Source of the DNA: an uncultured Prochlorococcus sp.
GTDB lineage: Bacteria; Cyanobacteriota; Cyanobacteriia; PCC-6307; Cyanobiaceae
Direction: 5' to 3'
Assembly (NCBI GenBank): GCA_902576415.1
Contig: CACGVZ010000004.1
Location: forward strand, 1-64,000
DNA length: 64,000 bases
In this document: piece after piece, positions 31,628 through 34,072 of the stretch
How the letters are laid out: each line of letters opens with the position of its first letter
Position numbering within the stretch: position 1 is the stretch's first letter
Notes under the pieces: model-generated
What the model was told of the DNA's origin: nothing
What the model saw: only the letters and a program-made list of their open reading frames with translations
The model's database searches: none
Made by a program: the position numbers and the translations under genes

Positions 31628-32545
31628 GTGACAATGAATGTAAGTATTGTTATACCAACTTACAACAGAAAACCCATACTAGAGAAATGTCTTTTCGCGC
31701 TTGAGAATCAGAAGTTGAATAAAAATACTAGTAATTATGAAATCATAGTTGTTGATGATGGATCTACAGATGGAACAAGTTTTTGGATAAATAATAATAA
31801 AGCTAATCTCCCTCATGTAGTTCTTCTTCAACAAGAACATGGGGGACCTGCATTAGGAAGAAATCTTGGGGTAATTAAATCAAAATATGAAATTATTATT
31901 TTTATTGATAGTGATCTTGTAGTTCTAGATAATTTTATAAGTTGTCATGTAGATAAGTTGCTTGCCTCTTGGAAAAAATATGATAAAAAATGTTTTACCT
32001 ATGGCTCGGTCATCAATACCTCTAATTTTCAAAATCCTCAGAGTGAAAAATATAAAATAATTGATACTTCTTTTGCTTACTTCGCGACTGGAAATGTTGC
32101 GATATTTAAAGAACTGATTTTAGGTGTCGGCCTATTTGATACCTCTTTTAGTCTTTACGGTTGGGAGGATTTGGAACTAGGAGAAAGATTAAAGAAAATA
32201 GGGACAAAATTAATTAAATGTCCAGATGCAGTTGGTTTTCATTGGCATCCCCCATTTAATTGCGAACAAATTGAATCATTAATAAATCAAGAAAAAGAGA
32301 GGGCAAAGATGGCATTAGTCTTTCATCGGAAACATCCAAATTTAAGGGTTAGATTTATGATTCAATTAACACCTTTTCATTATTTACTATGGCAGTGCCT
32401 TTGCTTGGGAGGACTTATCAGTGTTGATAGAATTCGACCATTATTGAGATTTCTTGTTAATGCCAGAAGAAATAGACTAGCTCTTGAGGTCCTTAGGATC
32501 CCTTTAAATTTGATTTACATTAAACAGTTAACTAAATCAAGATAA
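31628..32545 (+). CDS. Glycosyltransferase family 2
   Basis: VSIVIPTYNRKPILEKCL, VVDDGSTDGT, FIDSDLV. Confidence 0.93.
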   Translation: MTMNVSIVIPTYNRKPILEKCLFALENQKLNKNTSNYEIIVVDDGSTDGTSFWINNNKANLPHVVLLQQEHGGPALGRNLGVIKSKYEIIIFIDSDLVVLDNFISCHVDKLLASWKKYDKKCFTYGSVINTSNFQNPQSEKYKIIDTSFAYFATGNVAIFKELILGVGLFDTSFSLYGWEDLELGERLKKIGTKLIKCPDAVGFHWHPPFNCEQIESLINQEKERAKMALVFHRKHPNLRVRFMIQLTPFHYLLWQCLCLGGLISVDRIRPLLRFLVNARRNRLALEVLRIPLNLIYIKQLTKSR

Positions 32546-32573
32546 AAAACTTTTAGAAGTACACATCACTTGC

Positions 32574-32579
32574 TACAAT
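32574..32579 (+). promoter_or_regulatory. Candidate -10 element of rpsB-tsf
   Basis: TACAAT, about 20 bp before the structured leader. Confidence 0.4.
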
Positions 32580-32598
32580 TATTGAAACAAAATCCACA

Positions 32599-32660
32599 CA
32601 TCTGACAGTTTCGGGTGATTTCAAAGTAAATTCCCAGTCAGATGGAGGCTAACCCGAAAC
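32599..32660 (+). promoter_or_regulatory. Structured rpsB leader (interleaved stems)
   Basis: CATCTGAC (32599-32606) complements GTCAGATG (32637-32644); GTTTCGGGT (32608-32616) complements ACCCGAAAC (32652-32660). Confidence 0.7.
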
Positions 32661-32670
32661 CTTTTAAATT

Positions 32671-33375
32671 ATGGCTGTTGTATCACTATCTGAAATGATG
32701 GAAGCTGGTGCTCATTTTGGGCATCAAACTAGACGTTGGAATCCGAAAATGTCTAAATATATTTATTGCGCGAGAAATGGAGTTCATATTATTGACCTTG
32801 TTAAAACAGCATTATGTATGAACGATGCATATAAATGGACCAGGAACGCAGCAAAAAGTGGCAAACGTTTTCTATTTGTTGGAACAAAAAAACAAGCATC
32901 TGACGTGGTTGCTCAAGAAGCTACTCGATGCGGAGCTGCTTATGTAAATCAAAGATGGCTTGGAGGTATGTTGACAAACTGGACAACCATGAAAGCTAGG
33001 ATTGAAAGATTGAAGGATCTTGAGAAAATGGAAAGTAGTGGTTCAATATCAATGAGGCCAAAAAAGGAAGCCGCCGTTCTTAGGAGAGAACTTGAAAGAT
33101 TACAAAAATATTTGGGGGGACTTAAGGGTATGAGAAGATTACCAGATGTAGTGGTTTTGGTTGATCAGAGAAGAGAATCGAATGCGGTTTTAGAAGCTAG
33201 GAAATTAGATATTTCATTAGTATCAATGTTAGATACTAACTGCGACCCGGATTTGTGTGAGGTCCCAATACCATGTAATGATGATGCAGTTAGATCTGTG
33301 CAGCTTATTTTGGGAAGACTTGCAGATGCCATAAATGAAGGCAGAAAAGGTTCTAATGCCGAAAGAAAAAATTAA
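32671..33375 (+). CDS. rpsB: 30S ribosomal protein S2
   Basis: [41 protein letters not shown]. Confidence 0.98.
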
Positions 33376-33415: not shown

Positions 33416-34072
33416 ATGGGAAACATTACAGCAAAACTCGTAAAAGATCTTAGAGATAAGACAGGTGCAGGAATGATGGACTGCAAAAAAGCACTCAACG
33501 AGACTGATGGAAATCTGGAAAAAGCTTTAGAATGGTTAAGAAAGAAAGGTATAGCAAGTGCTGAAAAGAAATCGGGAAGAGTTGCTGCTGAAGGTTCTAT
33601 TGGGAGTTATATTCACACAGGATCAAGAGTAGGAGTTTTGCTTGAGTTGAATTGTGAAACTGATTTTGTTGCAAGAGGTGATATATTTCAATCTTTGTTG
33701 AAGGATGTCTCAATGCAGATAGCAGCATGCCCCAATGTCGAATATGTCTCAATTGATGAAATACCAGAGGAGGTAGTAGAGAAAGAAAAGCAGATTGAAA
33801 TGGGTAGAGATGATCTATCGGGGAAACCAGAACAAATTAAAGAAAAAATAGTTGAAGGTAGAATAGCGAAAAGACTTAATGAGCTAGTTTTGCTTTCACA
33901 ACCTTACATTAAAGATAGTTCCCTTACTGTTGAGGATCTAGTTACACAAGCAGCCGCAAAAATCGGAGAGAATATCAAAGTAAGACGCTTTACAAGATAT
34001 ACGTTAGGAGAAGGTATCGAAAAAAATCAGATTGACTTTGCTGAAGAAGTTGCTTCAATGAAATCAAATTAG
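33416..34072 (+). CDS. tsf: Elongation factor Ts
   Basis: [30 protein letters not shown]. Confidence 0.98.

Follow-up and report, generated by a model that had tools for sequence, protein, structure and literature searches.

A conserved pseudoknotted leader upstream of rpsB in Prochlorococcus and its probable role in the control of ribosomal protein S2

The leader of the Prochlorococcus rpsB gene raises the question of whether a set of interleaved complementary segments lying just ahead of the start codon is an accident of composition, a pair of alternative hairpins or a single folded element, and what such an element might do for the expression of S2. The reading favored here is, taken as a whole, very probable. 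It holds that positions 32595–32660 (66 nt) represent the rpsB motif (S2 leader) in its cyanobacterial form, that this element lies close to the 5′ end of the rpsB-tsf message, and that S2 represses its own synthesis through it.

The interleaved segments and their surroundings

Four interleaved segments (a, b, a′ and b′, separated by 1, 20 and 7 nt), a GGAGG and a TACAAT hexamer had been described in this leader by the initial annotation, and all of them were confirmed at their positions (Table 1). Across the window, that is the whole 64-kb stretch of DNA that was analysed, there is a single perfect interleaved arrangement of 8 + 9 bp within 62 nt. At least one such arrangement was also present in 16 of 60 dinucleotide-shuffled windows, and the nested minimum-energy fold of the leader, which predicts b/b′ alone, is not more stable than those of the shuffles (z = 0.03); therefore the sequence pattern is by itself no more than mildly surprising. 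The shuffled windows speak for chance complementarity within an AT-rich intergenic stretch insofar as a comparable pattern arises somewhere in them, but this explanation deserves practically no credence and is refuted by the comparative data, in which the pattern is conserved at the same place and covaries in 298 of 299 leaders (see below). On those data the element is certainly real, its layout and both predicted helices recurring across the cyanobacterial class.

The gene downstream, located in 366 of the 400 family genomes searched, is followed by tsf, presumed to be the second gene of an rpsB-tsf operon. The TACAAT hexamer and a TTTAGA at 32552 are separated by a 16-nt spacer and give 9 of 12 promoter matches, with a TG ahead of the −10-like element. 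This hexamer and the start of the motif are 15 nt apart in the window and in 68 leaders, and 14–20 nt apart in most leaders with an assignable hexamer. The −10-like element is consistent with a transcription start at about 32585–32588, about 8 nt ahead of the motif; no rpsB transcription starts in Prochlorococcus were found in the literature searched. The sole terminator-like site nearby is placed upstream of the leader, at 32488–32500.

Table 1. Features of the rpsB leader and adjoining genes (positions in the window)
Feature	Position	Strand	Remark
−10-like TACAAT	32574..32579	+	TG one base upstream (TGCTACAAT, extended −10)
CAC, outer part of P1	32595..32597	+	faces GAG 32645–32647: C-G, A·A mismatch, C-G
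Bulged A between outer and main P1	32598..32598	+	invariant in alignment A1; same unpaired A in the RF01815 consensus
P1 5′ strand CATCTGAC (segment a)	32599..32606	+	pairs with 32637–32644
Pseudoknot 5′ strand GTTTCGGGT (segment b)	32608..32616	+	pairs with 32652–32660
Variable loop at P3 position	32617..32636	+	hairpin weak or absent in the window; forms in most relatives
P1 3′ strand GTCAGATG (segment a′)	32637..32644	+	pairs with 32599–32606
GGAGG	32644..32648	+	conserved motif element, P1 end plus linker; 22 nt before ATG
Linker GAGGCTA	32645..32651	+	P1 to pseudoknot 3′ strand; 7 nt
Pseudoknot 3′ strand ACCCGAAAC (segment b′)	32652..32660	+	ends 10 nt before ATG
rpsB, ribosomal protein S2	32671..33375	+	ORF, 234 aa; ATG at 32671
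tsf, elongation factor Ts	33416..34072	+	ORF; identity from sequence and place after rpsB

In the proposed fold P1 would be formed by CAC-A-CATCTGAC with GTCAGATG-GAG, closing a loop that contains GTTTCGGGT and the variable hairpin, and GTTTCGGGT would pair with ACCCGAAAC directly downstream of P1. The CRC in the outer part of P1 is invariant or nearly so across cyanobacterial leaders; its middle pair is a G·A or A·A mismatch in most cyanobacteria and a GU pair in 3 of 124 unique cores, and the RF01815 consensus has CaC/GuG at this place. Several leaders (L112, L126, L210, L215–L218) carry GTGG for GAGG after P1, which restores a G-U pair opposite CGC and resembles the GGuGG of RF01815. The loop measures 16–138 nt among picocyanobacteria; that of the window has no stable fold, and those of most sampled relatives fold. 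The linker is 7 nt long in 198 of 202 picocyanobacteria and 8 nt in 78 of the 96 other leaders.

Conservation and covariation of the two helices

The comparison drew on 299 rpsB leaders, which came from 80 named Prochlorococcus contigs and from a wider set of genomes across the family and the class. With a parser that selects the register giving most pairing, 298 of them read as CRC-A-P1(8)-(0–2 nt)-b(9)-loop-P1′(8)-GAGG-linker-b′, the P1 register being probably misplaced in L278–L280, L284, L288 and L293 (basal, among others). Only L120 could not be parsed; it carries ACTC instead of ACCC, and a G-U pair is still possible there. Nine standard pairs are found in b/b′ in 201 of the 202 picocyanobacterial leaders, all 202 of which have at least 7 of the 8 P1 pairs; among the 96 non-picocyanobacterial leaders, 6 or more pairs of b/b′ are kept in 95, and 7 or more of P1 in 93. 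The spacing between P1 and the pseudoknot strand is 0–2 nt in nearly all leaders.

Some basal or divergent leaders depart from this scheme. In families f26 (L238, L283, L290) and f16 (L242, L278, L280, L284, L288) the 5′ CRC and the usual GGAGG are missing, and P1 is kept together with an altered pseudoknot (CTTGGGT/ACCCATAG and CTACGGGT/ACCCGTAG); these leaders may represent a distinct S2 leader subtype. In two leaders (L279, L293) P1 and the pseudoknot strand seem to be separated by an additional hairpin, in the place of the P2 that cyanobacteria otherwise lack.

Covariation was evaluated in two alignments. In an anchored alignment blind to P1 pairing, the top 8 of 903 covarying column pairs are all structural, 6 in P1 and 2 in the pseudoknot; GGGT and ACCC were required in this set, so the pseudoknot core is invariant there by construction. 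The second, A1, is a MAFFT alignment of 54 sequences, structure-blind though made on parser-chosen stretches. Here 90.6% of cells pair, compared with 81.5% in shuffles and 26–54% in slid versions, and 118 cells are changed on both sides, compared with 30.6 in shuffles and 4–29 in slid versions. In P1, 98% of cells are paired and both-side changes occur at 7 of the 8 pairs; in the pseudoknot they occur at 3 of the 9 pairs, and the GGGT/ACCC core never varies. The covariation among relatives that the initial annotation had proposed as a test is in this way present. Compensatory P1 changes are found even within the genus (CTGGC/GCCAG, GAC/GTC, GGC/GCC, GAT/ATC), and compensatory cases in the pseudoknot are GATCGGGT/ACCCGATT in L224 and CTACGGGT/ACCCGTAG in L242. 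A tree-based null, in which substitutions are re-placed along a FastTree tree, gave two P1 pairs at E < 1 and no pseudoknot pairs; since this null is conservative, the conclusions drawn here rest on the ranks, the slid controls and the named compensatory changes. The pseudoknot helix thus has good comparative support, weaker than that of P1, because its evidence consists mostly of conservation and single compensatory cases, with a modest covariation that is not significant under the tree-based null.

These data also bear on a two-state switch, in which P1 and b/b′ would be alternative hairpins with S2 or another signal choosing between them. Either helix can form without the other at similar predicted energies (−9.8 and −12.2 kcal/mol), the nested prediction of b/b′ alone agrees with such a switch, and many picocyanobacteria have a CCC ahead of a′ (in the region of loop 32617–32636) that might pair with the GGG of b and compete with the pseudoknot. 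Against this, the two helices are conserved jointly across the class, together with the linker sequence and the connections of 1 and 7 nt, which is what a single compact fold would show; moreover, the motif as published is pseudoknotted in all taxa (PMC2704228), and the leader has no terminator that a switch could turn on. The switch is therefore improbable, and the pseudoknot is preferred because both helices are conserved together. Of the two structures left open by the initial annotation, a pseudoknot or mutually exclusive hairpins, the former stands and the latter is disfavored, both helices being kept together in nearly every leader.

Relation to the rpsB motif and its Rfam models

Meyer et al. 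(2009; PMC2704228) described an rpsB motif that has stems P1, P2 and P3 and in which J2-3 pairs with the 3′ extension of P1 to make a pseudoknot, and listed it in Cyanobacteria, where P2 is absent or very short (at most 3 bp). The Prochlorococcus element lies upstream of rpsB and tsf and has a long covarying P1, no P2, and a pseudoknot in which the loop junction pairs with the P1 3′ extension. Judged by its sequence and predicted pairing it is this published motif, homologous to the E. coli t44/S2 operator. The likeness to the Meyer motif extends to the unpaired A of P1 and the GG-N-GG linker. Several differences stand beside it: the pseudoknot predicted for most taxa has five pairs and that of the window 9 bp, P3 is weak in the window and there is no Shine-Dalgarno sequence after b′. 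With the E. coli operator the leader shares P1 and a CACACAC...GTGGAGGC-TAACC core, and a 7-bp TTGGGGT/ACCCCAA can be read from the E. coli sequence at the pseudoknot position (L307, 312–318 with 346–352), 8 nt after P1. Unlike the Prochlorococcus leader, that of E. coli has a long P2 hairpin in the loop and a Shine-Dalgarno sequence, AGAGG, well downstream of the pseudoknot.

A scan of the whole window at the Rfam gathering thresholds returned no matches, RF01815 (cut-off 40 bits) included, a result that taken alone would have suggested novelty. The comparison with the Rfam ribosomal protein leaders recommended by the initial annotation pointed elsewhere, as RF00127 (t44) applied directly to the leader matches 32577–32654 with 28.2 bits (E = 0.0002), where the cut-off is 44 bits; the E. 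coli rpsB leader reaches 83.5 bits with the same model. The RF00127 search over relatives omitted the host genome, though the direct scan of its leader gives this match, which is a limit of the first-look filter. RF01815 scores other cyanobacterial rpsB leaders at 18–29 bits (maximum 28.7) against its cut-off of 40, and its best whole-genome matches, placed against the rpsB coordinates where these could be checked, lie directly upstream of rpsB in G438, G415, G434, G441, G401, G425, G404 and G408. The rpsB leader of the host genome was not among the matches listed by the genome search with RF01815. Neither does RF01815 report the E. coli rpsB leader that RF00127 finds, and therefore it does not cover the whole motif. 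The two models look like parts of one motif, both missing the cyanobacteria at their cut-offs, and both are typed as sRNA genes and not as cis-regulatory elements.

A model built from 45 cyanobacterial leaders, with the genus Prochlorococcus and E. coli left out (R1), gave exactly one match in the host genome, at 32595–32660 (E = 8e-13), and also matched the E. coli rpsB leader at 22.4 bits. Within the class it located the element in most genomes searched; no match was obtained in G402, G414, G427 and G440, in whose families the leaders, read by hand, diverge. The phylum-level search outside the class gave matches only at E values of 0.04 or worse, treated as chance, and the search of phage records for the leader gave no match.

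Control by S2 and the missing Shine-Dalgarno sequence

The comparisons show that rpsB is preceded by a conserved, covarying predicted fold that is a homologue of the E. coli S2 operator. Autorepression of E. coli S2 through the rpsB leader is published (PMC10931766, PMC2704228): excess S2 represses its own mRNA through the leader with the assistance of S1, and the Shine-Dalgarno sequence and the start codon are outside the operator (PMC10931766). By analogy, S2 autorepression of rpsB-tsf through the pseudoknotted leader is the best explanation for the Prochlorococcus element, and we hold it with high confidence. S2 in excess over 30S subunits would bind the leader fold, probably together with S1, and the bound protein would block the initiation of rpsB, lowering S2 and EF-Ts together. 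The end of the pseudoknot is so near the AUG that bound S2 would plausibly hinder 30S loading, and EF-Ts would fall with S2 because tsf is on the same message. We infer S2 binding in Prochlorococcus, the block at initiation and the response of tsf from the E. coli system; the literature searched yielded no cyanobacterial S2-binding or reporter experiment. The candidate S2 autoregulation through a pseudoknot put forward in the initial annotation is thus supported by the conserved, covarying pseudoknot, and its statement that such control was known in principle from gammaproteobacteria was too narrow, as PMC2704228 already lists the Cyanobacteria, pseudoknot included. Among other systems, the S15 (rpsO) and S4 (alpha operon) operators are similar in placing the autogenous control of a ribosomal protein gene in a 5′ pseudoknot (PMC10931766). 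Their structures and proteins are unrelated, and the E. coli S15 and S4 pseudoknots include the ribosome-binding site, whereas that of the window ends 10 nt before the AUG.

A closer inspection of the segment around the start codon corrects the view of the GGAGG as Shine-Dalgarno-like. This sequence is nearly invariant in A1, including the row of E. coli, which has a separate Shine-Dalgarno sequence further downstream, and it is a conserved element of the motif (GGuGG in RF01815), not the ribosome-binding site; in those relatives that have a Shine-Dalgarno sequence, this is likewise separate and downstream of b′. GGAG or AGGA is found between b′ and the ATG in 96 of 96 non-picocyanobacterial leaders and in 0 of 202 picocyanobacterial ones. 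In the window, 1 of 42 long ATG ORFs has GGAG or AGGA upstream, so that the lack of such a site is characteristic of the lineage and not of rpsB in particular. As picocyanobacterial leaders are devoid of a Shine-Dalgarno sequence, the step blocked by S2 may differ from that in E. coli.

The same counts give some room to a role in which the pseudoknot acts directly in translation or in stabilizing the mRNA, for example by giving S1 a place to land on messages devoid of a Shine-Dalgarno sequence, or binds EF-Ts or S1 and not S2. Pseudoknots are high-affinity S1 targets and S1 aids S2 repression in E. coli (PMC10931766), which would fit such a role. It is nevertheless very unlikely, since the same core motif is present in non-picocyanobacterial cyanobacteria that keep a Shine-Dalgarno sequence and in E. 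coli, where S2 is the repressor, and since the motif is tied to rpsB, with a single match in the host genome. Within the favored S2 autorepression, a tentative extension is that the S2 leader has been remodeled in picocyanobacteria: the Shine-Dalgarno sequence after the pseudoknot would have been lost and the pseudoknot 3′ strand lengthened to ...GAAAC, and the pseudoknot, via S1 or the 30S subunit, would now be part of the ribosome-loading site, with S2 controlling initiation in leaders that have no Shine-Dalgarno sequence. We regard this as possible and rather doubtful.

The element belongs to a known family already reported in the phylum and is not a new kind of regulator. What the analysis adds are small details: the element occurs almost universally in the class, picocyanobacteria have a pseudoknot of 9 bp and have lost the Shine-Dalgarno sequence, and both Rfam models score below their cut-offs. 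An S2 leader is present in practically every cyanobacterial rpsB leader examined, that of Prochlorococcus included, and is missed by the current Rfam models. The step at which S2 represses initiation is called unclear for E. coli in the review literature, and cyanobacterial leaders with and without a Shine-Dalgarno sequence offer a natural comparison for how S2 exerts this repression.
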